Assembly: GCF_025698545.1 (NCBI RefSeq)
Contig: NC_068569.1
Location: forward strand, 1,302,001 to 1,366,000
DNA length: 64,000 nt
Direction: 5' to 3'
Source of the DNA: Gossypium raimondii
Taxonomy: Eukaryota; Streptophyta; Magnoliopsida; Malvales; Malvaceae
The position numbers and the translations under genes were made by a program. Within the stretch, counting starts at the first letter, position 1, and each line of letters opens with the position of its first letter. The notes beneath the pieces are model-generated. The model was given only the letters and a program-made list of their open reading frames with translations, was not told where the DNA came from and made no database searches. Of this stretch, positions 4,291 to 59,344 are shown piece after piece.

Positions 4291-4380
4291 CGTGTTTTTC
4301 TAAAGTTAGGGTTTTTTGCATGTTTAGTCCCCAAGGTTTTTTAATTTAGGGTCTTTAGGGTTTAAGGTCTTGTTAAAATA

Positions 4381-4420
4381 GTTTAGGGTTAGGGTTACGG
4401 TTAGGGTTAGGGTTAGGGTT
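4381..4420 (+). repeat. Short telomere-like TTAGGG tract
   Basis: About six consecutive TTAGGG-type units with one variant (TTACGG). Degenerate TTTAGGGTTT-like units flank it from about 4320 to 4625. Most plant telomeres are TTTAGGG; here the perfect core is the six-base form. It lies inside the MULE, so it is better explained as element sequence or local slippage than as a former chromosome end. Confidence 0.7.
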
Positions 4421-4685
4421 TTGTTAAAATAATTTGAGTTTAGGGTATAGGGTTTAAGAATTTTAAAAAATAAATTAGGGTTTGGAGTTTTTTTAAAAAT
4501 TAATTAAGTTAGGTTTTATGGGTTTTAAATAAATTAATTAAATTAGGGTTTAGAGTTTTTTTAAAAATTAATTAAATTAGGGTTTATTTTTAAAAAAGTA
4601 ATTTTGTGTTTAGGTTTAGGGTTTAGGGAAAATTATTTTGACAATAAGGATTTTGTTTTTTTTCTAAAGTAGTTTCAAAAAAATT

Positions 4686-5052
4686 AATTTTGAGAAGACA
4701 GTTCTGAAAAAATGGTGTCAAAAACGCTTTAAGCAAGATGCACTGTCAGCAAAAATATTGAAAAAAGCTCTCATATGGACGCTCTTTTTTTACATTAGTT
4801 CTTGGAAATAATTTTGAGAAGACGGTTTTGAACAAATGGTGTCAAAAATGCTTCAAGCAAGATGTACTGTCAGCAAAAATACTGAAAAAAAGCTCTCACG
4901 TGGCACTCTTTTTATACAGTAGTTCTTGAAAAATAATTTTCAGAAGATGGTTCTGAACAAATGGCGTCAAAAACGCTTCAAGCAGGATGCACTGTTAGCA
5001 AAATTGATGAAAAAAGCTCCCACGTGGACGCTCTTTTTCTACAGTAGTTCTG
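4686..5052 (+). repeat. Three tandem copies of a unit of about 124 bp in the MULE 5' region
   Basis: Units start near 4686, 4810 and 4936, each beginning with AATTTTGAGAAGA-like sequence. Each contains AAATGGTGTCAAAAA, a CACTGTCAGCAAAA-like segment, AAAAAAGCTC and a GGACGCTCTTTTT-like segment ending in CAGTAGTTCT. Copies differ by scattered substitutions and small indels. They sit directly upstream of the transposase start, where MULEs carry promoter or transposase-binding repeats. Confidence 0.8.
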
Positions 5053-5149: not shown

Positions 5150-7920
5150 ATGAGTGAACGTATTAGTGTTGTTATTTACTATGATGGTAAGGTCTGTGAC
5201 ACCGAGAACGGCGTTGTTTTTTTATCGGAGAACACAGCGCGACTGGTTTTTAACTAGAACATAGATTTGATAGAACTTCGTAAAAGAATTAGGCGTAAAA
5301 TCTTCGAAACGATGCCAATGAGAGTTTCATCTATTAAGTATCGTTTTGTGCTTCGATTGATCCCGTGACATATGACTCATTTGATATAAAAGGTAGTCAT
5401 AACTTAGAGGCAATGGTGCATACTCATCTCACTAGTGGACATTTGCGACTTCAGCATCTACTGCTGTTTGAGAGGCATACACGACCTCTACCCGACACTC
5501 CGTTAGTGGGAGGTAGAACACAGAAGCACCAGTGTTTGGTGGAAATATGAAATACACAACTCCTGCACGACACTCGGTTAGTGGATGAGACATGCACATC
5601 ATTGGGTCGATGTTCGATGTTGGAAATACATATTGGGAAATGACGTCAACTTCTAGTGGTTGGCGATCTACATCTGATTGGGGACGTTACGAAATGTCCA
5701 CAAGAAGGGATGATGTACTCTCTACGACATCCACCGGCGATAGGACCTCGTACGTTGCAGATAATGATGGGTCGGATGATGAGTCCAATGTGGATCCACC
5801 TCAAGAGCTCAGACCCAATGGTCTAGAAGTTGCATTATTTTCTAAACTGAAACCTGTTCCAATCGAACCTGAAGATGTTGAAGGGGGTTCAGATGAAGAA
5901 GAAAAAGATTCGCGATTCAAGGCGTACCGTCTCCAACCCACATGCATAATGTCGATCTATCGACAGATAATGCATTGGAGTTTCCAAATTTATCACACAA
6001 AATGTGTGACCGTACAAGTTCGTAATTGAATTCGGGTGAATTGAAAGTTGGTAAAGAGTTTTCCAGTAATGATAGTTTTCTTGATGCATTGAAACAACAT
6101 AGCATCATGAACGGGGTTAACAACAACATGGTTAAATCCAAATCCGAGAAGTTTGAGACTAAGTGTGCAGTGCAAGATGGTACATGTTCATGGAAAATCA
6201 TGGTTTCGGTTAAGAAAAAGATAGGCTTGTGGGAGATGAAAAAGTACAAAGGTCTACATATCTATATTGTCGGTACAGTATCACTACGTGTTTAGGGTTT
6301 TTGAATAATACTATTATTATTTAATGTTGCATTACTTAACGTACTTTGTTGACAGGTGTTTCACAAGATCATCCTAAGATAGATTCAAATATGATAGCTA
6401 CCTTAATACTACCGACGGTGAAGGCGAATCCCAAGACTTCTGTATTGGTCTTAATTGCCAATATTCGTAGCCAATTGAGGTAAACGCCCTCTTACCACAA
6501 GGTTTGGATAGCTAAGCAAAATGCATTAGAAAATATGCATTGTGGGTGGGATGCCATATAATGAGGTATGACAGTGGTGTCAGGTGCTGAAGAGGTAAGT
6601 CCTAGGTTGTATAACAATGATCGATTGCTTTGTGGATGCCAAGTGTTCAAGCGTCTGTTCTGGAGCTTTAAGTCATGTCGATATGCATTTGTGTACTGTA
6701 AGCCATTGGTACAAATTGATGGTACATTTATATATGGTAGATATACCCATCGGCTATTGCTAGTTGTGGCACATGATAGCGGTGGGAGAATCCTTTTAAT
6801 TGCGTTTGCAATAACACCAGGGGAGTCAGGTGATGGCGTGATTTCTTCTTTCTAGGTTAAGGAGGCATGTCTGCCCCCAACCTGATATCTGCATTATATT
6901 GGATCGGGGCACTGGAATACTAGTCGTAATTGAGCGACAGGGAAGCCTATAGGATCGCACACACCATTGGTATTGTCTAAGGTACGTTGCGTCCAACTAC
7001 TACAAGCAATATCGGTCTACCACTGAACGACGACAAGTGACCAACATGGGTATTTAATCTCTATTAATATAATTTCATTTATAATATTCAATTTATTCTG
7101 AATGGAAGAGTGATATGTAATTTTCACGTGTTGGTGATTTTGTGTCCAGTTAACGAACAATGCGTAGACTACCTCTATAACATATCCTCGAACAGTGGGT
7201 ACAAGCATACGACGGCGGCCTACGATATGGTCATATGACCTCAAACCTGGCTGAATGCATAAATTCTGTTCTAAAAGGAACGCGTTATTTGTCGATAACC
7301 TCGGTTGTGTGAGAGACATATTTTCGTTAGTGACACTATTTCCAAAGCGAGCAGTGAGTTATAAAAGCCAAATACAGTGAGGCCATGTATGGTACCAAAA
7401 TGTATTGCAAGAAATTAATAAGATGAAAGCGCGGGCCAACACCAAGCACACAGTGTGTCACGATCGCGACAACCAATGGTTTCGTGTGACGGAGTTTGAC
7501 AAACCGAACCAAGGTATTACTGGCGGGCAATATCGTGTATACTTGAGAAATAGTACTTGCGACTATGGGATGTTTGACGCATTTCATTATCCATGCGCTC
7601 ATGCAATTGCAGCTTGTCAAAATCTTCGTTTGGATCCTATGAGATATGTCGACGAAGTGTAGAAAATAGAATACATGTACAATGTGTGGAGACACGTATT
7701 CCCATCGGTCCCAGATGAACGTAAGTGGTTGTTTGTATCGCTTGCTCCGTTTAAGTTGTTACCAGATAGAAAATTACGTCGCAAACTAATAGGTCGACCT
7801 TCCACGAGTAGAATACGTAATAATATGGATATTCGGGAAAGAACGAACCAACAGAAATTGTGCGGATGGTGTAAAAACTTAGGTCATACAATTCGATCAT
7901 GTCTACATCGAAATAGTTGA
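5150..7920 (+). pseudogene. MURA-type Mutator transposase relic
   Basis: Encodes a broken MuDR/MURA transposase of a plain DNA transposon. The start is the ATG at 5150 (MSERISVVIYYDG). An in-frame TAG appears within about 40 codons, and further stops and frame changes divide the gene. In order, the pieces show an acidic linker (about 5760-5930), a MuDR N-terminal domain (LKVGKEFSSNDSFLDALKQH, about 6040-6290), the catalytic-region signature (VQIDGTFIYGRYTHRLLL, about 6705-6770), a SWIM zinc-finger segment (CDYGMFDAFHYPCAHAIAAC, about 7558-7620), and a C-terminal zinc knuckle (CGWCKNLGHTIRSC, about 7860-7905). Domain order is that of complete plant MURA proteins, so this is a formerly full-length gene. 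Only relics of the DDE region between 6850 and 7400 are readable. Confidence 0.85.
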
Positions 7921-8163
7921 TAATTGTTGTAATGAAACTATGTTGCATTATTTCTATTGTATTATTCAAAAGAACTTATATTTTATTAAAAATATAAAAA
8001 TAATTTACTATTAAATGAAACAATATAAAAATAGTTTGTACAAATATATTAAAACAATTTATATTAAAATAATATTAAAATAATTTACTATAAAATATTA
8101 AAAATAACTTTTATTTTTCAAATAAAACAATATAAAAACAGTTTGTACAAATATATTAAAAAA

Positions 8164-10321
8164 TCAATGTATATGCCAGTCGGAATCAATACCACATAGG
8201 GGTGGTCGAAGGTTACGCGCTGAATTCCTCCTTGGTTCAGGTTTCGGCCGGGGTTGTGGTTGTTCCAGTAGGGGTTGTGGTTGTGAGTGTTGGGAGGATG
8301 ACCCAACTTGATAGAATAAATAATGCGGAGGTGTTTGCATCACCCACAGCGGAGGTGTTTGAATCTCATAAGGTAATGGGGATTGGTAATGAGATGAGCT
8401 CCCCGACGGTACCTTGTGCGATCCCTCCTGCGACGATGGCCTACATATCGTCAGTTGAGTGGGAGTCATCAAGAAAAAAGATGCACCGGGCCATACATTC
8501 CAACCTGGTATAGGACTGAGAAAAGGAAACATATAAGGGTTAGGATACATATAAGGGCTAGGATACGCACCTAGCATAATCTAAAGAGGTTGTGGTGTGG
8601 GTGTCGTCGGTTGAGGCGTTAGGCCCGGTATATGTGTGGGCGCTATTGATGGGCCCGTGCCATCATCCATTCTCTTTAGATTTAAAGGGCCCCGTCATTC
8701 TCTTTCGACATGAATTTACCATGCCTTTGCTCTTTCGACAGCAAATATGGCTTGTCATATATCCTAAACTATGACATGTATTCTAGCGCATACGCTAACT
8801 CTGGAACGTTGATCGGTTCGCGAGTAGGTATATAATCATATTGATTTTCTGAAATTTCAATATATTCCGAGAAGAATACCGACCAATTCGTATTCGATTG
8901 CTGTAAGTCGATTTTGTACTTATCATCGAGTACCTTAAGTGCCACAGAAATCGATTGTCGGAATCCAAATTGCCGCAACACTCTCCGTCTGGTGCATCTC
9001 GACAGTAGCATAGTTGACCAATGGGACCTTAACATGCCAAATGTTCGGATTTTGAAAGAATTCATCTAGAATTACTGCTCGAATTATCAGATCCTCGTAT
9101 GGTGTCTATTGAAACTATATGAACGTGATAAAAATATTAGTTATATACATAATACTAAATACTAAATACTAAATACTAAATATGAAACGACTATTTTATG
9201 TATATATATTATTTAATACTTACTTGCGCTTCCGACCGTTGGTCTAATAGAAGTCGTATATCTTCAAGAACGGTAGGTATTCCAACATAACTCGCCGAAT
9301 GGTTCCACCTAATTAAATAAATTTTTAGCATACAATTATATTTTAAATTTATGTAATAATTGTAAATCTAATATAATTTTACCTCGTTATGAGTGGGAAT
9401 ATATATGGGTGGTTCACTTGAGGATGTAAAATGGAAAGCAAAACTGAACATATGATTGTAGTAGAGGTGCTCATAGGCAGGGCGGTCCGTCGGGAAATAT
9501 GGGAGGATTCGGGTAAAAATATAGGCCCGAAATATGGGTTTGGCTCGGGCAGCAGTTTTTTGGCTCAGGACCGGTCCGGCCCGGCTCGAATATATAATAA
9601 ATATATATTTTTTATTTTTTTAATTTTAAAATACATTTTAATTTTTTTATTTTTAAAATAAAATTTTGGTGTTTGTTAAAAAAATGGGCTGGGCTCGGGC
9701 TTAGGAATTTTTTCCCTGGCCAGGCCTGGACAAAATTTCAAGCCCATATTTCAGGCCGAGCCCGGGCCTAGGACGCGAGCCGAAATTTTTTTCTAGGCCC
9801 GACCCGAACCCGGCCCATGAGCACCTCTAGATTGTAGTAGTGATAGAAACCTCCGATTTTGGCTTTATTTGGTGGTGTCGCCCCGCACATCTCCCGGTAC
9901 AATGTTGCCAACACGGCAGATCCCCAACTAAATTCGTCAGCTGCTTTAAAATCAACGAGTTTCAGCAGCCACCTCAGATGTACGAGGTTTTGTAACCAAC
10001 CCATCTCGATCCGACTTCCCTAAATATTATCCGGAATCGCATCGAAAAGATCGTAGCATACGGCTCCCCAATCAACAAATTGAACGGACCCGATGAATGC
10101 GAACCCATCCACCGGCAATCCCAATTGTAACTACACGTCATCCAAAGTGATGGTACACTCTTCGCATGGAAGATGGAACGTGTGCATCTTGGGTCTCCAC
10201 CTCTCCATTAACGCGCTGATGAGTTTCAGGTCCAACTTGCACCCCCACCTATAGTGGTCACGTGCCAAAAACCCGCTTCCCTCAAGTAATTTTCTATCAA
10301 CAGTGATGGATATAACATTGT
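8164..10321 (-). pseudogene. Plant mobile domain (PMD) gene relic inside the MULE
   Basis: On the minus strand, pieces of a PMD protein of the kind often annotated 'serine/threonine-protein phosphatase 7 long form homolog' can be read. The N-terminal part lies near 10321-10000 ([10 protein letters not shown], then [19 protein letters not shown] and LQLGLPVDG). Next comes a segment at 10004-9840 (MGWLQNLVHLRWLLKLVDFK...ATLYREMCG). The C-terminal Pro/Gln-rich tail is at 8577-8164. Several stops and frame changes break it, and a MITE at 9462-9829 interrupts it after YHYYN. PMD genes occur both as host genes (MAIN/MAIL type) and as MULE or retroelement cargo; position inside the inverted repeats supports cargo here. 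Confidence 0.8.
9462..9829. mobile_element. Non-autonomous hAT-type MITE (368 bp)
   Basis: Terminal inverted repeats are TAGAGGTGCTCAT at the left and ATGAGCACCTCTA at the right. A perfect 8-bp target duplication, GATTGTAG, flanks it at 9454-9461 and 9830-9837, which is diagnostic of hAT elements. The interior is GC-richer near the ends (GGCCCGG-type segments) with an AT-rich centre and no transposase. It is inserted in the PMD pseudogene of the MULE, so it is younger than the MULE insertion or arrived while the MULE was elsewhere. Confidence 0.9.
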
Positions 10322-11012: not shown

Positions 11013-11620
11013 TTATGCGAAATGGCGACCGCCACCTGCTATTTGAATCCCCATGGACATGAAGACAAGAGAGATGGTGGCAACAAGGGATGAAGCTGAG
11101 CTGGGAGGAGGTGGTGGGGTTCCGGTCGTATTGTGGCTTGTTCCAGGCACAGGAGCAGTCCTGGGGCCATTTCGGACTTCAACACTCAGCTTTTGGCCCT
11201 CAGCACAGTGATCGGCGAAAGTGCAAATGAAGTGATGGTCACCGATACTGTTAAGCGTAATTCTCGCAGGTCCGGTGCTCCGAGTAAGGATGGTATTGGC
11301 ACTGCTGCAGGCGTTGTAAGCAGCCTCGGTCACCTTGGCAACATCATGTTCTCCGGTCGTAAATTTAAACACTGCAAAAAAAAAATCGTCACAAGAAAAT
11401 TAATATCTGTGAGAAACTGAACAGAGAAATTCTCACCAAGAATATCCCCAACTAAGAAGTTCTTATTGTCTGTCCAGTTATGATATTATTCAGTATAACC
11501 GGTTGGGATTATCCAACCAACGGTGTCACCCACAGTGTAAGTTCCAGCATATGTGATCTGCAGCACGTTTGAAGCCAAAACAACAAGTGTTGCAGTCATG
11601 CTGACGATTTTCATTGCCAT
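11013..11620 (-). pseudogene. Stellacyanin-type phytocyanin pseudogene (copy 1)
   Basis: Paralogue of the intact copy at 18543-19144. Exon 1 (11620-11437) encodes MAMKIVSMTATLVV and a signal-peptide-like start. It then has an in-frame TAA after GYTE, where the intact copy reads TEFYDDW. Exon 2 (11371-11013) still encodes the copper site: His in GEHD, then Cys and His in FICTFADHC, and Gln in GQK. The hydrophobic tail follows the paralogue through SLVFMSM and then switches to unrelated sequence (GIQIAGGGRHFA), so the end of the gene is replaced. The intron has normal borders (GGTGAG donor, TGCAG acceptor). The MULE's right end lies only 140 bp downstream. Unless the stop is bypassed, no full protein is made. 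Confidence 0.82.
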
Positions 11621-11649
11621 TTTCTTTTATCTGTGTCTGGATATTGATC

Positions 11650-11681
11650 GTGTTCTCTGCTGCTTACAGTCGTTCCCCCTG
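11650..11681 (-). promoter_or_regulatory. Looped miR398-like site in the leader of phytocyanin copy 1
   Basis: The + strand reads GTGTTCTC (11650-11657), a 9-base interruption, CAGTCG, an extra TT, then CCCCCTGG. The two blocks match miR398 (TGTGTTCTC... and ...GGTCGCCCCTG) apart from the loop and insert. The homologous leader position in copy 3 has a cleaner form. It lies 30 bp upstream of the start. Pairing this interrupted may be non-functional. Confidence 0.4.
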
Positions 11682-15705: not shown

Positions 15706-16325
15706 CTATCTCTCTGCATAAACAATGGTTTCAGCAATGGACATTGCTTGAATAATGATGGCCAGGGCCGAGAGAAACATGGATAAGGAAAACAAGGTGG
15801 CACGTGGTGCAGATGATTCATCGGCAGCTATAACATCGAATGCCACCTTTTGGCCTTGCTCACAGTGAGTACCAACAGTGCAGATGAAGTAATGGAATCC
15901 CTCTGTGGTAAAAGGCACCCTTACTCCAGCCACTGCGTACAGAGTCATTTCCGTAGCGTTCGTATTGCAGTTATCGTAATCGGCCTGGTTTCTTACTTGA
16001 GCTGCCGTGTGATTCCCAGTCCAGTTGAATACTGAAATATATAACAACAAAAGTACAGCACAAAAGCAGGGGTTAGATTTATAAAAATTATATATATACA
16101 AGTAATTAGGGTCTGGTACTGGATATTGTTATTACCTGCTGAATCTCCGACCTTAAATTCATATCTATTTGCCCAGCTAGGATAGTACTCACTAGAGTTA
16201 CTAGGGGGGACATCCCACCCATAACCGTCTCCCACTTCATAATCAGCTGCAATTGCACCCTTCAAAAATGCCATTGCCACCATTAACAATCCAACCAAGC
16301 TCAAACTGAAACGATGGTCAGCCAT
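15706..16325 (-). CDS. Stellacyanin-type phytocyanin (copy 2), blue copper protein
   Basis: A secreted or cell-surface type I copper protein; such proteins transfer electrons to small partners, but their exact partners are mostly unknown. Exon 1 is 16325-16136 and exon 2 is 16031-15706 (GGTAAT donor, TTTCAG acceptor), giving 171 residues. A signal peptide covers about 1-26 (ends KGAIA). Copper ligands are His71 (GNH), Cys114, His119 (CTVGTH) and Gln124 (GQK). Gln as axial ligand and the Cys-x4-His-x4-Gln spacing mark the stellacyanin class rather than uclacyanin/plantacyanin (Met). The C-terminal hydrophobic stretch (LFSLSMFLSALAIII) could serve as a GPI signal, although a further segment ending in VYAER follows, which is unusual. 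It diverges more from copies 1 and 3 than they do from each other. A miR398-like site abuts the start. Confidence 0.88.
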
Positions 16326-16327
16326 TT

Positions 16328-16350
16328 TGTGTTACTCAGGTCGTCCCTAG
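16328..16350 (-). promoter_or_regulatory. Probable miR398 target site in the 5' leader of phytocyanin copy 2
   Basis: The + strand reads TGTGTT, one extra A, then CTCAGGTCGTCCCT, i.e. the miR398 sequence itself; the gene is on -, so the mRNA carries the complement. Against miR398b as remembered, bases 1-15 match apart from the single-base bulge after base 6, base 16 differs and 17-20 match. The site ends two bases before the ATG. miR398 regulation of a blue copper-binding protein through a bulged leader site is reported in Arabidopsis. Confidence 0.75.
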
Positions 16351-16452
16351 GGATAATACCCCCTTCTTCTTTGGTCCCTTGGTGAAAAGTTTCGATTTAG
16401 CAAGAAAATTTAAGTGGATAATTTGCCAACTACCTGCTGCATAAACATGAAC

Positions 16453-16466
16453 TGTATATATATACA
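16453..16466 (-). promoter_or_regulatory. TATA box candidate for phytocyanin copy 2
   Basis: The palindromic segment TGTATATATATACA lies about 130 bp upstream of the start codon, a plausible TATA position for a leader of about 100 bases. Confidence 0.45.
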
Positions 16467-16469
16467 GAA

Positions 16470-18542
16470 GGGCAAGTCGGTTAGAAGATGACAAGTGTAT
16501 AACAAACATGGAGGAAAAGTAGAAGTCGAATACGTTCCAGCGTTAGCGTTTGAATGTTCAAATGATTGTGTTTCATTCTTGCATGTTTTATAGGATGAGA
16601 GACTGCTTCAATTCAATGATCATGACCTGGTGTATTCCCCTGTTTTGCAGATACAGTTAATCATTCATTCAATGGTGTTACCTATTTGCTGATGAGTAAA
16701 AAGTTTACTTAATCACGCAAACCGCAATTGATCAGTTTACTAAATCTTCTTTGACATATATACACATAAATAAGGGGAAATGAAAATAAAAAAAAAAAGG
16801 TAGAAGGACGTCACGTTCTATAGATATTAATGTATTGTATATTTTGGTTTTTGTAACCCTAACTTCATCTCAAACATCAGCATTACTAAAACTTGGCGTC
16901 ATGCTAGAAATCAACTCTTGGGTCAATTTTATCTGTCATCAAACAATTATATATATATTGTTCGTAATTATTGACATTATTAAACACTTGCTTTATGATG
17001 TTAACTTACTGATTCTAGATAATTCAAAGCATTTTAATTTCTTAAGTCAGCATACTTTATGCATGTAAATAGCTCGAAGTTTGTTTAACTGTTTTAATAC
17101 ATAATTGTTATTGTCACCAAGGGACTTAACATTTTGCAAATAATATTAATTTTAATGTGTTTTGCTTCAATGGTAAGGTAGAGATTTTCATCTAAATATA
17201 ATGTTTTATAGTGAAAGTCATTAAAATTGTAAAGATTATATTAAATCTAATTACCTCTTTATAAAAATATGGAGAGAATGGGAAAAGGAAACAAAATTAT
17301 TCAGTAACTGTAATCTTTTAAATTGTTGGTATGAATTTAGTGATTTAAAAGTTATTATATATTAATTACGTGCGTTAACAAAACACTTGTTTTAGTAGTG
17401 TTCATAACATGATAATGAAAGTGGTGCTAAGGGCCGTATTTGAACTACATTCAACCACTCACTTGCATTGTTGTCAAGTGATTAATTCACACTACTAACT
17501 GTGCCTTAATTTAGTTTAACCAATGTGGTTACTTGAGCTGGTATAACGTACGTAAATGTTGGAAACACGGCTAATGATAATGTTTTTTTTCCTTTTCCAC
17601 ATTTAATTTTCCTCATGATTAGATAATTGTGACAAATTGAAAATGAAAGGACAGTCGAAAGTATCTACCCTGGACTTTTAAGTCCAATGTCATCAACGGT
17701 GAACTCATAGGTAAATGTAAAATCGTAAAATGGGCTTATGATTTCTCATATATGTAAATCTAAGTCGATTTGCCTTAGCCATAGTAAAGTCAAATTAGAG
17801 AATAATTGGGTCATGTAAAGGCTTAACGCTTTTTTTTTTAAACAATTTTCACAAAAGAAATAAAAAAGTACAAAATAAAAAAGATTAAGTCAACAGAATT
17901 AGGTATCATACACCACCGCCTTGGACGGTGATGTTATAAGATTTTAAGATGACATCTGTTAGATTAATAGTTCAAATTTCAACTTGAAGAACATTCTTGG
18001 GCAGTTAGCATAGGCTGAAGGGTGTTGAAAAAAGCAACATCCAGTACGTAATTAATTGCAGGGAGGGCGGCTAGCTATAAGGTTAAATAAATGTGTAGCT
18101 AAGCTGAGTTGAATGGTTGAAAGATTATGCAATCAAGATATGGTTAGGTTGTTTTTGCTGGTACCATCCATGTCCTTTTTGTTCAATTAAAGCCATGTGT
18201 ACCAAATTGTAGTATTGAGATTTTACAAAAGCTGGGCGGTGGGCAGCAGCCACTTGACACCCATCATTCCAAAACCTCCCAAAAAGGAGATACTGAGAGG
18301 AGGAAAAACAAGAACCATTCTTTCATTGTGTTTTCAATTGAAAAAAAAAAGGGGGGGGGTCTGATTAATTTGTAAAGCAAATGAATCAAGCTTTTTTATT
18401 CAAACATACAAAAATCTCACTCCATATGATAAACTATAATGATAATAACAAAACGAATGAAGACTGTGTCTGGGTATACGCTACAAAGTGTGAAGTATAC
18501 TGAACTGACATATGAATCTCACATAAAAATGAACAGGCAAAA
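16470..18542. other. Intergenic region between phytocyanin copies 2 and 3
   Basis: No gene seen. The sequence is AT-rich with an oligo-G run at about 18351-18359. The last 100-150 bases are probably the 3' UTR of copy 3. Confidence 0.45.
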
Positions 18543-19144
18543 TTAGCAGAACAAAGCTAAGGCAATGGACATGAAAACAAGAGATATGGTGGCAACAAGG
18601 GCAGAAGCTGAGCTGGAAGGATTGGGGGTTGAACCAGGTGTGGGAGCAGTGCTGGGGCCAGTTCTGACTTCGATGCTGAGCTTTTGGCCTAAGCTACAGT
18701 GACCGTCGAAAGTGCAAATGAAGTAGTGTTCACCGGTCCTGTTAAGGGCAACACTCGCCGGTCCTGTAGTATATCGAACGATGGGATTTGTAGTGTTGCA
18801 GTTGTCGTAAGCAGTTTCAGTCACCTCGGCAACATCATGTCGTCCGGTTGTAAAACTAAACTCTGCGAAAACGTTGGAACATTTTTCGTCAAAAAAACAC
18901 CAACTTCTTTAATTCAAGTAACAAACTTAACTAAGTTGGATCTAAGAAACTCACCAAGAACATCCCCAACCACGAAGGTCTTATTGTCTGTCCAGTCATC
19001 ATAGAATTCAGTATTATTAGGGTTAGGGACTGTCCAACCGGTGGCGTCACCCACAGTGTAAGTTGCAGCATATGTGCTCTGCAACACGGATGAAGCCAAA
19101 ACAACAACAACAAGTGCTGCCATGCTGATGATTTTCATTGCCAT
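18543..19144 (-). CDS. Stellacyanin-type phytocyanin (copy 3), blue copper protein
   Basis: Exon 1 is 19144-18955 and exon 2 is 18862-18543, giving 169 residues. The frame is open upstream to 19222, but the ATG at 19144 gives a proper signal peptide (MAMKIISMAALVVVV... ending STYA), so it is preferred. The plastocyanin-like domain follows, with copper ligands His72 (GRHD), Cys113, His118 (CTFDGH) and Gln123 (GQK), the stellacyanin arrangement; Cys85 and Cys119 would form the conserved disulphide. A Pro/Ser-rich linker (STAPTPGSTPNPSSS) leads to a hydrophobic tail (LVATISLVFMSIALALF), typical of a GPI-anchored phytocyanin. It is the intact sister of the pseudogene at 11013-11620, with which it shares flanks and intron position. 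It probably resides at the plasma membrane or wall. Confidence 0.9.
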
Positions 19145-19149
19145 CTTTC

Positions 19150-19175
19150 GTGTTCTCTGCTTATACAGTCGCCCC
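19150..19175 (-). promoter_or_regulatory. Looped miR398-like site in the leader of phytocyanin copy 3
   Basis: The + strand reads GTGTTCTC (19150-19157), eight extra bases, then CAGTCGCCCC (19166-19175). The blocks match miR398 bases 2-9 and, with one G missing, about 10-19. The site ends five bases before the ATG. Its position equals that of the near-perfect site of copy 2, and a looped leader site is the form reported for an Arabidopsis blue copper protein gene. Confidence 0.55.
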
Positions 19176-21457: not shown

Positions 21458-23769
21458 CTATAGGAACTCAAGGCTTGATCTCACCTGAATTGCTTCTTCG
21501 GGTTTCATGTTAATTTCGTTGACGCCTGAAGCATTTTGTTCCTCATTGCAGTTTGCCAGTTCTTTCTCCTTGACTGATGTTTCGGATTCAGTAGCGTTGC
21601 TACCATGTTCCCCCTTTTCTTCTCCTTCCGCCTCATTTTTCATTTCTTTGGTATTGAGTATGTCGGGTTTGTCCAGCTGCCTGGTTCCAACCCCTTTCTC
21701 TGTTTCAGCCACTGGCAGTTCAACATTTCCCTGAGATGTTGTGCTTGCACTCTCGAAACCTTCTTTTTTCCTTTGCGCAACTCCAGACGCATCATCTTGT
21801 GTGCCCTTCAATTCTTCAGCATTTTCCTTACCTTCTTTGACATCAGCAGATATATTAGCATCTTCTCCAAGTTTCACTTCTTGTGAAGTGGGTACGGTTT
21901 TGCTATCAGCATCTTGTGATTTATAGTGTTCATCTGGCTTTGCAGTGACCTTTCCAGCCTCTCCTTCCACATTATCTCTCTCAGATTGTTTATCCTCTTC
22001 CATATAAACGTCTTTAGTCACCTCAGTTCCTTCAGGGGCAGTTTCTGATTCTTTGATGTCCTTTTCTGAAGCAGATGATTTTCTGCCTCGTTTTTTCGGA
22101 GGCTCACCTTCTGGCATTGGCATTGCTTTTACCTTCTCACTGATCCTTGCTGATCTCCTAGGGTTCTCGCTAGTCCCCCAACTGAATTCTGATACCAGAG
22201 GACCACCAGGGTGTGCTTTAAGGTGCTGTTCCAATTGTCTCTTGTTACTAATTTCCTCCCCCGTCGGAGCCGTGAATATGATCTCATTTTTCCTAGGTGT
22301 CCCCCTTTTCTTCGGCATGAACTGCAAATAGAAAGAAACCCCAGATTGTACTAGCTTGTAGATAGGAAATGTATATAGTGACATATATCCAATATATATA
22401 GATATTCAAGACCATACATGAAAATCTCCTGATGAACTGAAAGTGAGCATATATGCATGCAAAATCTATGGCAGGTTGATAATCAGTCATCTTAAGTCAA
22501 GAAAAGTATGCAGAAAAGCACAGAATAATTCACAAGTTCTTCACTAACCATAAAATGCTTGAATGAGCACAAAAAGGAATGTCAGGTCAAAGATGTAAAC
22601 TGTGCCTCGCTAAAACAGCCAATTTATACAAGCAATAGCGCTATCACGATTTCCAAAATATTAAGATAAACAAAGAAAAGCAGATACACGTCATCTCCAA
22701 TATGCATCTTACATACTGCTAAGGTTCATTCTCTTCATAAAAGTTCTAGAGAAATCAAAGCATAAAATAGATAAAACTAAAGATAGTAATCAGAAAATGT
22801 CAATATGCTCATCACCCCGAATTAACTTTATGTACACTCCAAGGCAACTTATCACATAAAGTTACTTAGTCCATAGTCCGTAAATGACCAAGAAACGTTC
22901 AAATTGAACATAACTCCAACAACATTAGAAAGCACCTGATACATTGGAACATGCTTGAACAAGAAAATCACAATCATAAGAGAAATTAAGAATATAAGTC
23001 CCGAGAAACAACAGCATTCTGACATCTAGCAAAACATTGTACACAACAAATCAACACTGAATTAATTGTAAACATCGAAATAAATTCTTCAGCATCGATG
23101 TTGATTTCAGATATATAAAAAATCATATAAATTTTACAAATTGCTGAAAGGTTTTGAAATAATGTTTAATCGACTCGCACTCTTTTAACTTCATTCAAAG
23201 CCAATAGTTAACATAGCATCTGTCAAATGAACATTACGTCTTCCAAAATCCAACTAAATGGAACTAGAAATTTTATATGGGGTGCCCTAATTTGCTTATT
23301 TGTCTCATGAAATTATTTAAAAACAGAAACCCAGAAAGTAAAGAAAAAGCAGCTTCTACACAACTCTAGCTATTGCTTTGCTTCCAGTAAACTGGGAAAA
23401 CCCAGAAATGTTCAAGAACAAGCAGAGCAAATGAACCCCCAAAACAGAAAAAAAAACTAATCAGAAATTACAATTAATTGAAGAAGCACACACACGAAAA
23501 GAAAATCCGAATTGAAAATTATCATTAGTTCCAAAATTCTATCACAAAATTCCCAAATATAAATATTAAAAACATAAATGAACAGAAGTCAAACATCCTA
23601 ATTAGAAATAATCAAAGCTAGTATAAAGTATAACCCATGTTAAACTGAAGCAACTAAGATTTAAAAGAAAAAGAACCTTTTTCTTCCAACCAGGAGGAGC
23701 AGGGAGTTCAAAGCAAACAACGTCCTCTTTGCCACTCTCCATTTCCTTCTTCTCCGACATGCTCGCCAT
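21458..23769 (-). CDS. Methyl-CpG-binding domain protein, MBD10/11 type
   Basis: A nuclear chromatin protein of the plant MBD family. Exon 1 is 23769-23677 ([18 protein letters not shown]... to PGWKKK) and exon 2 starts at 22321 ([16 protein letters not shown]), with an intron of about 1.35 kb. The MBD fold covers about residues 22-95 ([50 protein letters not shown]). A basic stretch ([10 protein letters not shown]) follows, then a long acidic Glu/Lys-rich low-complexity tail. This layout fits MBD10/MBD11, a class not known for strong methyl-CpG binding. The continuous frame ends at 21458 (VRSSLEFL), but a good donor (CAG|GTGAGA) occurs at 21485. The true C-terminus is therefore probably encoded further downstream; a frame-compatible exon 21434-21318 is possible but not recognised. 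Confidence 0.85.
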
Positions 23770-32296: not shown

Positions 32297-34694
32297 ATGT
32301 CGAACTGCATCGATGTTGCGCCTGAGCAACTCTGCTATATCCCTTGCAACTTTTGCAACATCGTTCTTGCGGTATATATATCTCTCTCTCTTCTTTAAGT
32401 ATTTATGTATACTTTGGTTTTGGTATTTTCCTTCTCCATATATATTAAATCCTGAAAATAAAAGTGGGTCTTTGCATCTGTGATCAGTGCTCTCTCGTGT
32501 TCTTTCTTTCTTTTTTTACTGAAATCTATTGATTTTGTTTTTCTGGGGTTTTCTTGTTTTTTTCTTACCACTTACCAGTCATGTCTCTATCGTCAGCTTC
32601 TTTTACAGTCATGGAAAAGTCATAATGCAATGACCAGAGAAAGAAAGAGAGATGGAGAGGAAAAGGCTTAGTACCTTAGCCTTAGCTTAGATATTAGTTA
32701 CTGATCTTTCTTTTTTTAGTTTATTATTATTACGATGACGATGTTGTTTTTGGTAAATAAATTTAATAAGAGTAAAAATTTCAACGTCCAAAGTCCAAAC
32801 ACAGGCATTTTGTTGATATTCTGATGAGTACAATACCTCAACTCCCTTTGTTTCACTGCTGTTGTTACATACCTTTCCCTTTGCTTAAAATACAGCCACA
32901 ACTTGGTTCTTTTGCTAACTCAGTTGCTTTACCTAATGGGGGAAAATGAAAACATGAAGATCCTTAGTACCTTGTATCATTTCCCAGAAAACACCCTGCT
33001 TAAACACATTAAGAAACCCACCCATGCACCCATTATAGAATTACCATCTTGTATATCCATCCATTGTCTTACCTGATCATCTTCTTCTATGTTTACTGCC
33101 TCTTTTCTTCTTTATAGTTTGCTAATTATGGGATTATAATGCGCAGGTGAGTGTCCCATGCAGCAGCCTGCTTGATATTGTGACCGTCCGATGCGGGCAC
33201 TGCACCAATCTATGGTCCGTGAACATGGCAGCTGCATTTCAGTCAGTTTCATGGCAAGATATTCAGGTCCGAACTCTTTGAGAACTTAAAATTATTGAAT
33301 AAAAAATATATATAATGTCCATTTCAGGATCTTCAAACCCTCCGAAACCTAGGGCTTCAAAAGAGAAATGCTAAAAGTTTTTTTTTCCAAACACTTTCCT
33401 ATGAAAAATAGTTGCCGACAGTCACTGAAACCCTAGCAGCCGCCATGATCAAAACCTATTTTATTTGCTTTTATATAGGACTGAATTTTGCGGCTTTGAG
33501 AAAGAGGTGCCTGTAAACATAAACTATGTATATTTTTTATGCTAACCCATCACAAAAGCTTTTATCACTTTCTTGTGCCGTTAGTTTATTTTTTTCCTTT
33601 GTTTTCTGCTTTTGGGTAGTTTGATTTGATTGACATGTAAGTTAGGGTTCTTAGGTTTTAATGATATCTTTTAATGAACTTCGTCTTCAACAAAAGCTTG
33701 GTACATAGATTCTTTTCTAGGAACATAAATCAAAATATTTAAATTCTTATAAATTTACCAAAAATCTAAACGTTTATATATACTATTACAGGCACCGAAT
33801 CATGCAATGCAGGATTATAGGATGAAAGAATCGGGATCCTCATCCAAATGCAACAAGTTCCCAATGCGACCACCTGCCAACAATGTCGTCACTGAGGAAA
33901 GGGTCGTCAATCGACGTAAGTTAATCACATCTCTTTACATATAATACCACCTTTTCTTTTCTTTTCTTCTTCTTCTTCTTTTTTTTTTTACATCATTTTA
34001 AAAATAGATATATGCTTGGTTTTCCTTTTTCAGCTCCAGGGAAGAGGCAGCGAGTACCTTCTGCATACAATCAGTTCATAAAGTGCGAAAAATCCTATTG
34101 GTTTTGTTTAACATTGCACATAACATTAATTTTGTATTATATATAATTGCTGCATGCTTTTACTATATGTACTCTAATTATGAAATGATGTAGAGAGGAG
34201 ATCCAGAGGATCAAGGCCAACAATCCTGATATAAGTCACAGGGAAGCATTCAGCACTGCTGCTAAGAATGTATGTTCACTTTAAAGCTGCAAAAATCCAT
34301 ATATAAGAACATTAACATATACATTATAATTGTTAAGGTTTCATATAAAATATTTATGGTTATTCACCATTTCTTTTTTATTTTGTATTCCTGTATATAT
34401 TACAGTGGGCGCACTTCCCTCATATCCATTTTGGGCTGATGCTGGAAGCCAACAATCAAACTAAGCTGCATGATGTAAGTAATTATATATATATAGTTGA
34501 AACAGCTGCTGTGGCATGAATATTGAAATAACACAAAGTTTAGCATATAATAATAACCATAAATTTTGAGTTGTTTTTACCAAGTAATATTTGAGATTAG
34601 CAATGGTGAGAAGTATGATTAACTGAAGTTTATGATATTTGAACAGGCCTCTGAGAAGCATATCATGTCAAGGACTGCATTGTTCAACAAGTGA
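32297..34694 (+). CDS. YAB5: YABBY transcription factor, YABBY5 type
   Basis: A nuclear factor that specifies abaxial identity and lamina growth in leaves. Seven exons: 32297-32371, 33147-33266, 33792-33915, 34034-34082, 34194-34269, 34406-34474 and 34647-34694. All have GT-AG borders and add up to 561 bases, 186 residues. The C2C2 zinc finger uses Cys17/Cys20 and Cys41/Cys44 (PCNFC, RCGHC). The YABBY domain (HMG-like) spans about 107-163: [19 protein letters not shown], then [20 protein letters not shown] and PHIHFGL. The segment [16 protein letters not shown] plus [10 protein letters not shown] places it nearest YAB5 and YAB2 of Arabidopsis, with YAB5 preferred. It ends in [12 protein letters not shown], longer than Arabidopsis YAB5. 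A CT-rich tract and a leader of possibly 200-300 bases precede it. Confidence 0.93.
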
Positions 34695-37976: not shown

Positions 37977-40900
37977 TCAGTAGCATATGGCTTTTTTCCT
38001 TATTGAACTGAAAGATATTCTTGATGGCCTATCAGATCCAAAGTTGAAAATATTATCTGAAGCATCGACATGGGTACGGACATTGCTTGTCGAAGGGAAA
38101 GAAAAAAAAAGGCCGCGGAAGATCTGTTTGAGCCGCCAAAGCTAAATGAAGGCCCTGTATGTTCCTCTTTGGGTCGATGCAGAGTGCTACCTGATAGTGA
38201 TGGCATGATGGAAGGTGTTCAAGGCTCAGAAGACACACCAGAAGATGCAGAAACAGGGAAAGTGAAACCAGTGCTATTATCCAAAGTAGATATCCACCGT
38301 TGCTCAGGCTTGCTGACAGAAATAGAAGCCAAAACCGGTTTATTTTTAATGGAGTTACAAGGCCTTTCTGAAGCACCAGCCTTTGAGTGATCCTGTTCAA
38401 AAAATTGATGTACACTTATGAGTTCTTAATGGGCAGATAAATAAATGGCATATATAACAAATGAGTTCTTTGATAGACATAGGCAAGTTAACAAATGAGA
38501 CATAAAATGATTAACTCTGCTCCTGCGTAGTATCATGCTCACAAGATTCGTGATCCCCACAAATTTCAAAATTGCATTATAAAAGGGAAGTAAACTAATG
38601 GTACATCTTGTCACCAATGTACTTGGCGTGAAAGAAGAAAAATAGAGACAAAAATAAAATGTCTCTTTCACTTTCCAAGTTGGGATATTGGGACAACAAA
38701 ACGATTAAAATGATGTTCATATATTCACCATAGTGCATTTGATATAATTCCCATAAAGTATGTCAGAAAAATTAGGGTAAAATAGACTAAATTTTCTAAA
38801 AGATATTGACAGCTAATTGAAATGCTTCTAGTTTTAACTTTAAATTACTAGGAAAGTACTAAGCAAAATGTCATAGAACAATAATAGAAGGATGAATGAA
38901 GTACCTCCTGTGCAGTCTTGATTTGAGAATTTTGAAATTTTCCAAATCTAGTGACGACCCGGCATTAGTGCCAAACATTTTAATAGTGCTATGAGCTTCA
39001 AACTCTGAAGCAGAAGTTCTGTTCACATTCTTAGCTTCAATGGTATTCAATGGGGAAGGCACAGAAAATGATTTCCCTCTATCTTCATTCCACTGAGCAG
39101 GACTTCTGTTGTTGATTTGATTCTTGCTTTTAGAAGAACCAAGTCCTAAACATGGCAAACAGTTAGCATTAGCATCTAAAGATTCAGATATTTTACTTGA
39201 AGTGGCTATCTTTAACACCTCAGACTTCTCCTTACGAGTGACTAGATTTCGCTCTAGGTGCTCTAATATTGACCTTTCCATATGACTGGAATGTGGATGT
39301 TCGGGTGGGATATTGATCTCGGAGCTTCTGTTACCATCTAATGACTGAAAAATTGGAAGAGATACTGATCACTCCTTGTTCCAAGTTGTTCTTGATAGAA
39401 GGAAATACGCCCTTGGAAACATTGGAATTTGCCATTGGAAAAGGACTGTTTAACAACGAATGAGAATAAATAGGTCCTCTAGGTTGGGTTTCTGCAGTGC
39501 CATTATGTCAAATCCTGCGAATGGATCGCACAGTTCCATGGCCATCATCTGCAAGGTTGCTCCTCAACTTCAAATATGTGTTCAAACAAGTATAGGACTC
39601 AAATAGATGTAACAATAATAGTTCAAGTCATGAAAAGGCAAGTTTCAAATAGGCAATAGCTACCTACAACATGATGAATATTCCCTTATTCAGCTTTTGA
39701 CCATGTCCAGCTTTAGGGGCAAAAATACATAAATTAGACTCTGTTCAACCTAGAAGCACATTGTTTCCCCAAGGCTTTGCTTGGTAGGAAGGATAAAAAG
39801 GGGTGGGAATAAAAATTTCTTAGTCTAATGGTTAGTTTCCATAACCGCTTTCCTACTTTAGAGCTTAACAATCGGATTAAACACGTTTCGTTCTTCCCCT
39901 TTGTATCTTTCCTATTTCCTACCAAGCAATGCCTAAATGGTCTTCGAAAACAATTTTAGATAATAGTTATGGCACAACAATTACAAAAATGACATAACAC
40001 AGACTCCATCAGAAAACATAGAACATGCTTGTCCACGCATTGGAAGTAACCAAGAATCCATATTGAGGACCTAGTTATTAACATTCTATGTGAGGGTCAA
40101 GGTTCAATTTCCCTTTTCATTAATCCCAATGTAACCATTTCTTTTTCCTTTTCAAGAAAGAGGAAGCTGATTCCCTATATTTATAGCACTACAATGGAAG
40201 TATAATGAGTAGTAGTACTATGGCTGCTAATCATGAAAACTTACCTGTCCATATCTAGGAGTTTGCAATTGCTGCAAGGGAGAGAATGAACCATTCAGGA
40301 AACCATTACCCTTGTCTTGTACATGATCCAACTGATTACATACAAGGAAGAGAAAAGAAAAAATATTTCTCACGCAGTCGATCAGATGTAATCATAGAAG
40401 AATAGGTGCAAAACCCACACCTTTGATTTAGATTTTGAATAAATAGTTCTGAAGTAAGGGGTTCTTGGAATATTATGAAGCCCAAATCTGCCTCTTTGAC
40501 TGTGGAGTTAGATAACCACGCTGATCCTGTACCATGGAACCCGGCCAACATGTGGATGACTTGGGTGAAGGCAATGGAACAAATGATTCTGATTCAAAAT
40601 TGTCACTGAGCACTATTGGTCTTTCATCTTTTGATATAGCACTCTTAGAACCTACGTTTACTTCTGGTGTCCTCATTGTCATGTATGCTTTTGCAAGTTC
40701 AATAGGTCAGCATCCAGTTTCATTTGGGAGCTGCAGTGTTTCATAGAATAAAATTTTAAATAAATAGGGAAAAAATACGAAGGACACAAGCACATCAAGT
40801 TTCAATGTACCTAACAATTGACATATGTTAGGCGTGCCCAACGATGCAACTCTCTGCGTGGACTAACATATTACAGAGATCGACAGACAGATAAAGACTG

Positions 40901-56943: not shown

Positions 56944-59344
56944 TTAGACAAGGATGTCGCATCTCCACAAGCTTTCCACGAGCAGCTCAATGGTTTGGGT
57001 GCTGATTGAATTGCAGTGCTGGAGATTCAACCCCACCAGGGTCTTGCCCAATTTTTTTAGGAAGGTCATGCTTTTGTTTGATACTCCTGAACAACCTGAA
57101 AACGAAAGGACTTGCAAGTTGAGTTGCTCTGCGTGAGACAAGGCTGCAATACCGACATCGGTGATTGCACACCTTGACACATCCAAGTCGCTGAGGAAAA
57201 CACAATTTTCTGCAACTGCAGCCAAACTTGCATCAGTAATCCTCCTGCAACCGTTGAGATTGAGCAACTCGAGGGTTGCGCCATGTAGCTTGGTCAAGTG
57301 CAAAACGACCTCATCAGTCAAGTTTAAGCAGCCGCTCAGATTCACTTTCACAAGTCCTGCCTCGCAATTCTCTAGAAGAGGCAGAAGACCTGCATCTGTA
57401 ATGCCGCAAAGTCCGCTCAGGTCTACGTGCTGAAGCTGAGGGCACAATCTGCCCACCATAGCCAGGCTGGCTGTTCCGAATCCTGGGCAGTTCCTTATAG
57501 ACAAGGATTTAAGGGAATTGCAAGAGGAAGACAAAGGAGCTTCCAAGGATATATCCTTAATTCCCATACACTTTACTAGGGTAAGAGATTTCAACCCACA
57601 GTTTGAGAGAACACCGATAACCCCGGATTGAGTGACCCTGTTGCACTCCTCCAACTGCAAGCACTCAAGAGAACCAGCAGACTTGGCAAAAGCCACCAAT
57701 CCATCACCAGAAACGAAGCAACACCTGCGAAGGCACATCTGCTTCAGGTTAGCGCAGCCCTTTCCAATGGCTTCAAGACTCACATCAGTTACCCCCCAGC
57801 AAGAAGCAATTGTAAAAGAGACCAACTTTTGCAGACCCTGAGCATTACCCATCACCCAAAATCCCTTCTCGCTCACATTTTGTAGACCACTCAGCATTAG
57901 ATTAGTCACAGACTTGCCATAGTGCCCGATCACAGCAAGAGAAAAATCTGTGATGCTCAAACCCTGAAGCTTAACCTTTGAAAGGACAGAAGATGCTGAT
58001 GACAACAGGCTTGAAACTCCATGATCCCCAACAAGTGGGCAGTCCTTGATAGAGATGGACTGCAGCTTGGGGCAAAGCTTTCCGATAGCTTGGAGGCCCT
58101 CATTACCAATCTTTGGGCAAGATTGGATGCTCAACGCAGTCAAATTAGGGCAGTTGGCGGCGATGGCAATTAGCCCCTTGTTTGAAAGGTGGGGGCACTG
58201 ACAAAGATCAAGCTTCTCCAACAAATGGCATTCTTTAGCTATCTCGCACAGACCTTCATCTCCAACACGCGGAACATTCCACAAAGAAAGTACCTTTAGA
58301 GAAGGACAACCACGAGCTACGGCAGACAGCCCGAAATTAGTTACTCCACGTGAAGAGCTGCTTCCCCTAATAGAAAGCTTTCCTAAACCACCATGACCAC
58401 TTGTTCCAACCGCCACCGCAGCAAGCCTCATGTCAGTTGCTTTCTTTCCTTCTAAGCACCTTGTAAGATACCCATCATCTTCCTCGGATAAGATCATCTC
58501 AACATCACCCGAATTCGAACCAACGTTCTCCTTGACCACCTTTGATGACTCATATTCACCCTTGCGAATGCTGGTCAGAAGCATAAGCCAGTGCTTAGAG
58601 ACACAAGCACAGGAGCTCCTTTCTTTACCCCCAGAAATGCGTTTAAAGATCTCAACAAGGCATTCATCAGGGAGGACATCGATCGATGGTTGCTTATTCT
58701 GCTCAACCTCAGCTTCTCCGAAGTGAAATGGGGCACTAATACGCGTTCTTTTACGAGGCGGGCAGTACACATCAACTTGGAAACTGATTGAACACAATCT
58801 ACCCAAGTCAGTAGAATTTGTATAAAAGGACCCTCCATTATAGAAATCATCATCACCTGAAAATTCCAATAAACATATCATCACCACCTACTCAGAATAT
58901 TTCAAAAAAAAGAAAAAGAAAAGGAAAGCTAAGTGAAAATCATACATATTCCTACAATATCCTTTTTTTCCCCTTTCCAAGATCAATCAAACAAAAGACA
59001 ACCAAGGAAGAACCTTAAAACTATGCAAAGCTTTCAACTTTTAATGCAAATCTTCAAGGATCCAAGCCCGCAACACATATTCATATAACTAATCGTTCCA
59101 AAATCCTTTGACTTAGTTTTTCTAGCTAAAAACCAACATAGCCATGCTTTAAAACCAATTCCAGACTTGTAAAGTAAATCAAGCATAAAAACACCCACAA
59201 GGATATCTATATCAACATATAATGCTTAAAATTCTATCATCAATCTGAGAATTATAAACATATCTATAAGCTCAAGCCAATCTTTACCCACAAAAAAAGA
59301 AGAAAAGAAAAAAGCTTACCACTGTAATTAACAAGAGCAGGCAT
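56944..59344 (-). CDS. EBF1: EIN3-binding F-box protein (EBF1/2)
   Basis: F-box subunit of an SCF ubiquitin ligase that targets EIN3/EIL factors, so it represses ethylene responses in the nucleus. Exon 1 is 59344-59320 (MPALVNYS) and exon 2 is 58856-56944, separated by an intron of about 460 bp with a GGTAAG donor and TTTCAG acceptor. The protein is 645 residues, near the usual 620-650. Visible parts are a basic nuclear signal (PPRKRTR, about 41-47), the F-box (IDVLPDECLVEIFKRISGG to about 108), and then about 18 leucine-rich repeats of the Cys-containing type (LKVLSLWNVPRVGDEGL, LEKLDLCQCPHLSNKGL, LELLNLNGCRRITDASL) to the end. EBF1 and EBF2 cannot be told apart by eye; the symbol is provisional. 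Two EIN3-type motifs lie upstream, and the leader has an overlapping upstream frame. Confidence 0.93.

Follow-up and report, generated by a model that had tools for sequence, protein, structure and literature searches.

Does miR398 act on a blue copper protein gene of cotton through a site in the 5' leader of that gene? The question is raised by a stretch of 64,000 nucleotides from Gossypium raimondii (contig NC_068569.1, positions 1,302,001 to 1,366,000), which was analysed at its full length and is referred to below as the window. A first-pass annotation, made from the letters alone, had placed a near-perfect miR398 target site with a one-base bulge at 16328-16350, two bases before the ATG of a stellacyanin gene. 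In Arabidopsis, copper shortage acts through SPL7 to raise the level of miR398. The answer we reach is that the cotton gene, here named G2, probably carries an inherited leader site of the type known from the blue copper protein BCBP, at which its mRNA would be sliced when copper is short.

The G2 gene is encoded on the minus strand with its start codon at 16325-16323, and its main features are as follows.

16136..16325, minus strand: G2 exon 1, coding for the first half of a stellacyanin-type phytocyanin, including a signal-like N-terminus
16135-16032, minus strand: G2 intron, GT-AG
15706..16031, minus strand: G2 exon 2, carrying the Cys-His-Gln copper ligands
16328..16349, minus strand: predicted miR398 site of G2 in its putative 5' leader, pairing assigned by base, ranked first for both miR398 isoforms among 6394 tiles scanned by energy
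16455..16464, minus strand: TATA-box-like TATATATATA, -139 to -130 relative to the G2 ATG

Splicing gives a product of 171 amino acids with a hydrophobic, signal-like N-terminal stretch. A Pfam profile search matched the protein to PF02298 at 1.3e-17, which identifies a phytocyanin of the blue-copper class, and the top relative in the PDB was cucumber stellacyanin (1jer, 1.6e-20), followed by umecyanin and mavicyanin. When G2 is aligned to cucumber stellacyanin, the pattern Cys-x4-His-x4-Gln is found within CTVGTHCEQGQ, and Gln falls at the place of the fourth ligand, given what we take to be the copper-ligand positions. These features support the assignment of G2 to the stellacyanin subclass of phytocyanins, with Gln as the predicted fourth copper ligand, in agreement with the first-pass annotation.

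The 100 bases preceding the start codon are free of ATG. If transcription starts about 30 nt downstream of the TATA-like stretch, the leader would be about 100 nt long and would include the entire site, which is plausible. An in-frame TAA at 16334-16332, made of the bulged U and the following two bases, lies upstream of the ATG, so that the site is outside the coding sequence in the G2 frame. The region 16430-16290, spanning the leader and the start of the coding sequence, has a weak fold (z = +1.84), which 198 of 200 shuffles equal or exceed in stability.

The plus strand reads TGTGTTACTCAGGTCGTCCCT at 16328-16348, and the G2 mRNA carries its complement. Positions 1-6 of the miRNA correspond to 16328-16333, the bulged U is at 16334, and positions 7-21 correspond to 16335-16349. 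The site therefore ends one base earlier than the first-pass annotation had it, while the spacing of two bases to the ATG (16327-16326) was correct. Against the b/c-type miR398 UGUGUUCUCAGGUCGCCCCUG the leader forms 19 Watson-Crick pairs and one G:U pair (position 21), with one mismatch (position 16) and a single target-side bulged U between positions 6 and 7; the description as near-perfect with a one-base bulge is thus accurate. Positions 7 to 15 are paired without a break across the cleavage step, bases 9-12 included, and the predicted cut lies between 16339 and 16338 (opposite 11/10), 13 nt ahead of the ATG.

Alignment of cotton miR398 isoforms had been proposed as a check. The cotton a-type miR398 UGUGUUCUCAGGUCACCCCUU keeps 18 Watson-Crick pairs and the same bulge, but has mismatches at 15, 16 and 21; relative to the b/c-type, pairing is lost at position 15 and the G:U pair at position 21 disappears. 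The local duplex energies were -32.1 kcal/mol for the b-type and -29.1 kcal/mol for the a-type, corresponding to 73% and 72% of perfect pairing. The b/c-type sequence is printed for Malva, for which both isoform types are reported in the source text available to us. The a-type is the only full-length miR398 that we found printed for cotton, and a second printed cotton miR398 is a more divergent 19-nt prediction.

A bulged leader site in an Arabidopsis blue copper protein is indeed known. Brousse et al. 2014 describe slicing of Arabidopsis BCBP (At5g20230) by miR398 at a site in its leader, where 6 nt bulge out between positions 6 and 7 (PMC4005643). Shorter bulges at this step were still sliced and removal of the bulge strengthened repression. 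Of the 5' and central steps, only 6/7 tolerated a 6-nt bulge, which abolished repression at the others; the bulge differs in size among BCBP-like genes of other species (Figure S10B; PMC4005643). G2 resembles Arabidopsis BCBP in belonging to the phytocyanin family, in having the site upstream of the start codon, in the presumed leader, and in having the bulge at step 6/7. The bulge is 1 nt in G2 and 6 nt in BCBP, and slicing is known for BCBP and predicted for G2. At 1 nt, the G2 bulge could not be smaller, and it sits at the only step where bulges are known to be tolerated.

The BCBP leader site of Nicotiana benthamiana is reported to be bulge-free, with cleavage in 11 of 14 5'-RACE clones, and other Solanaceae BCBP sites are likewise described as bulge-free (PMC6296076). 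The Nicotiana gene, like G2, encodes a blue copper protein and has its site ahead of the coding sequence, but the G2 site has a 1-nt bulge. The first-pass annotation had considered the cotton site to be far nearer to the canonical form than the one already described; this is true in comparison with Arabidopsis, but since the Nicotiana site lacks a bulge, G2 is not the nearest to canonical. Umecyanin is also reported as a miR398 target in Nicotiana benthamiana (PMC7150760), and a review counts BCBP among the miR398 targets (PMC9502370). Cleavage evidence is cited for two members of the plastocyanin-like family to which G2 is also comparable, namely alfalfa Medtr4g114870, a miR398c target in the degradomes of all three genotypes (PMC6311939), and Arabidopsis At3g27200, which has a conventional site, unlike the bulged leader site of G2 (PMC4005643). 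The one paper found gave no BCBP site letters from other species.

For cotton itself, the text available to us names chloroplast Cu/Zn SOD (in a target plot) and RGA2 as targets of miR398b, with an unspecified 'copper binding protein' among the general miRNA targets (PMC5067717), and CSD and CCS are predicted as miR398 targets elsewhere (PMC5429560). A term search of the main text of a cotton phytocyanin family paper found no mention of miRNA (PMC10048054). Judged by title and abstract opening, none of the matches listed in our literature search was a prior report of a G2-type miR398 target in cotton.

A tblastn search of the window with the G2 protein revealed two more phytocyanin genes on the same strand, giving three in tandem, an arrangement overlooked in the first-pass annotation; a weak match at 40259 (E 0.48) was discarded as chance. 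Both siblings have an interrupted miR398b complement in the leader.

18543..19144, minus strand: G3, intact stellacyanin-type gene, exons 19144-18955 and 18862-18543, 169 amino acids, ATG at 19144
19149..19175, minus strand: split miR398b complement in the G3 leader, rank 2 for miR398b and rank 3 for the a-type
11016..11620, minus strand: G1, phytocyanin pseudogene, exon 1 interrupted by an in-frame TAA, intron still present, ATG at 11620
11649..11681, minus strand: further decayed split miR398b complement in the G1 leader, rank 3 for miR398b and rank 5 for the a-type

The top solved relative of G3 is umecyanin (1.5e-29). Its split site consists of GGGGCGACT (positions 19-11), a 9-nt insert and GAGAACACG (positions 9-1), and lies 4 nt ahead of the ATG. 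In G1 the order is CAGGGG, GAA, CGACT, a 10-nt insert and again GAGAACACG, 28 bases ahead of the ATG. A MAFFT alignment of the three leaders aligned the half-sites poorly, and energy scans with coordinate-checked pieces were used instead. With the b-type miRNA the G3 leader energy was equaled by none of 1000 shuffled leaders and none of 1000 shuffled miRNAs; with the a-type the counts were 4 and 2 per 1000. The corresponding counts for G1 were 3 and 24 per 1000 with the b-type, and 6 and 51 per 1000 with the a-type. G1 and G3 share 61% protein identity and have alignable leaders, which marks them as recent relatives, so their split sites are not mutually independent.

The chance of finding such sites was estimated by score and by energy. 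The match to TGTGTTACTCAGGTCGTCCCT is unique in the 64-kb window at up to three mismatches, and none of 100 shuffles contained any. Under a plant-type penalty score that allowed either ungapped pairing or one 1-nt target bulge, with the bulge doubled in the core, the G2 site scored 5.5 with b-type miR398, and no other place reached 6.5 when the whole window was scanned with both isoforms on both strands. Of 100 dinucleotide-shuffled windows, searched with two isoforms on both strands, 4 contained a score of 5.5 or lower; shuffled miR398b sequences run against the real window attained it in 5 of 500 cases when dinucleotide-shuffled and in 3 of 500 when fully shuffled. Since shuffles reach this value, the penalty score by itself is moderate evidence, and the site is good rather than extreme.

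The G2 leader duplex energy was matched by none of 1000 shuffled 120-nt leaders and by none of 1000 shuffled miRNAs with either isoform. In a gene-blind scan of 60-base tiles on both strands, with overlapping tiles merged, the leaders of G2, G3 and G1 were the three best places for miR398b (-32.1, -29.3 and -25.9, the next being -25.3); for the a-type they came first, third and fifth. When miR398b was shuffled, the top three places included none of the three leaders in 95 of 100 cases, one in 5 cases and two or more in no case, and for 13 other plant miRNAs these leaders never featured among the top three places. The best place in the window was at -32.1 or lower for 1 of 100 shuffled miR398b sequences, and the third-best place had a median of -24.4 with a lowest value of -27.1. 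The duplex energies as such are not extreme; the location of the top places is the unusual part.

The control miRNA miR408 calls for caution here. Its best place, at about 34035-34067 on the plus strand, has a duplex of -34.7 kcal/mol that includes an 11-nt bulge, within a reading frame that we take to resemble a YABBY-domain gene. A role for miR408 as a second copper miRNA at this place was rejected and the match taken as chance; no hairpin was found there (z 0.38). Stable duplexes with long bulges thus arise by chance and energy alone is a weak guide, so that the case for the G3 and G1 sites stands on place and family, not on energy.

The G3 and G1 sites look like interrupted relatives of the G2 site. 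Like IPS1-type decoys, they are interrupted at the cleavage step and paired to either side of it, but the inserts are 9-10 nt, whereas in such decoys inserts of 1-4 nt are reported to work best, 5 nt to be weaker and 6-7 nt to have low activity (PMC3121747). A decoy role for G3 and G1 was rejected on these sizes, which fall outside the rule of 1-5 nt opposite 10-11. By published tests the siblings are predicted to be neither sliced nor efficient decoys, which makes relics the likeliest reading of their sites and unsliced binding a bolder one. Under the bolder reading the tandem would hold three grades of site: G2 would be sliceable, and G3 and G1 would bind AGO1-miR398 uncut, with repression at the level of translation only or with G1 pseudogene RNA buffering miR398 against the sliceable G2. 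We give this arrangement little weight.

How old the G2 site may be was considered from the proteins. G2 shares 39% and 36% identity with its siblings G1 and G3. A six-sequence tree groups G3 with G1 (0.97) and G2 with cucumber stellacyanin (0.68), the latter pair being joined by umecyanin (0.89), and suggests that the split of G2 from G3 and G1 may be old. By identity, G3 is nearer to umecyanin (50%) than G2 is (35%), so that identity and tree point opposite ways on which of the two is nearer; umecyanin is used here as our assumed stand-in for BCBP. The simplest account is that the common ancestor of G1, G2 and G3 already had a miR398 site, which would then have been interrupted in G1 and G3, since BCBP leaders in Arabidopsis and Nicotiana also carry one. 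Alternatively, the sites may have been gained separately in the three genes.

The reading of G2 as a BCBP-type miR398 leader target is supported by its pairing and position, and slicing and a copper response in this plant are what the analogy with the known targets would predict. In the proposed mechanism, copper shortage would raise miR398 through SPL7, AGO1-miR398 would pair with the G2 leader on either side of the single bulged U, which would be tolerated at 6/7, and AGO1 would slice the mRNA between the bases opposite 10 and 11 (16338/16339). Loss of the mRNA would then leave less copper spent on the G2 protein. The case is strengthened by 19 Watson-Crick pairs and one G:U pair among 21 positions, by a bulge at the tolerated step, by the same family and predicted leader placement as in known BCBP sites, by the three top ranks of the leaders for miR398b, by the weak leader fold and by the occurrence of both isoform types in Malvaceae. 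It is weakened by the shuffled controls that did as well (4 of 100 windows by score, 1 of 100 miR398b sequences by energy), by the added mismatch at 15 with cotton a-type miR398, by the naming of SOD and RGA2 for miR398b in the cotton papers as far as available to us, and by the disagreement of identity and tree about kinship with BCBP in six sequences. A GTAC core, which we assume to be the copper-response element bound by SPL7, was absent from the 1 kb upstream of G2; one such core upstream of G3 and two upstream of G1 are uninformative.

Other explanations have to be weighed against slicing. AGO1-miR398 sitting on -3 to -24 would occupy the stretch used by the initiating ribosome, and because the site abuts the start codon, a block of translation as the chief mode of action is a serious second possibility. 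We nevertheless assign it a low probability, as pairing across 10/11 is perfect and slicing is known for the counterparts in Arabidopsis and Nicotiana. Complementarity that arose by chance and has no regulatory effect would agree with the shuffled windows and miRNAs of equal score and with the shuffled miR398b that had an equally stable best place. The site is, however, in the leader of a known target family and has its bulge where Arabidopsis BCBP has it, and each of the three best miR398b places in the window falls in the leader of one of the tandem genes, which makes a chance origin decidedly unlikely.

It is also conceivable that the G2 site is a relic with no present effect, as those of its siblings perhaps are, G1 and G3 having inserts at the cleavage step and G1 being a pseudogene. 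G2, unlike the siblings, has retained nearly all of the paired bases, and we regard this explanation as very improbable. The miRNA-like sequence on the plus strand might in principle mark a MIR398 gene there, an idea to which we attach next to no credence: the extra A would fall inside the miRNA, and two 223-base stretches at the site failed to fold as a MIR398 hairpin (z +0.31 and +1.18). The published peanut MIR398 precursor, from a paper that also describes miR408 blue-copper targets in the portion available, served as fold control and gave z -12.45. An Rfam search of the whole window at the gathering cut-off, run without a positive control, returned zero matches, and 16000-16700 gave one sub-threshold match unrelated to MIR398.

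We thus consider G2 most likely to be a further case of the known BCBP-type copper-saving control, as judged apart from the genes in Figure S10B of Brousse et al. If RNA data confirm it, G2 would add to the bulged BCBP-type targets one whose bulge measures 1 nt and lies at exactly the step where Arabidopsis BCBP tolerates it. Its score of 5.5 under the doubled bulge penalty suggests that strict predictors may overlook the site. The tandem genes form a natural series, G2 having a 1-nt bulge at 6/7 while the cleavage step is interrupted by 9 nt in G3 and 10 nt in G1, and such a series could allow direct measurement of how a single miRNA site is gained, is lost and varies in strength among related genes.

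Several other features were observed in the window. About six TTAGGG units at 4383-4420, amid longer TTAGGG-containing repeats at 4355-4587, form an interstitial telomere-like stretch; a repeat of the TTAGGG type is unusual for most plants. A 124-base tandem repeat in 3 copies follows at 4680-5051. The region 5589-9065 contains reading-frame pieces, with a SWIM zinc finger at 7381-7659 and no match in a Pfam search of three other frames, and is possibly a MULE-type transposon. On the minus strand, 56947-58887 is a long leucine-rich-repeat frame, perhaps of what we would take to be the EBF1/2 kind, with LRR_6 above the cut-off and an F-box match slightly under the Pfam cut-off. A methyl-CpG-binding-domain protein (PF01429) is encoded at 21461-22405, also on the minus strand.
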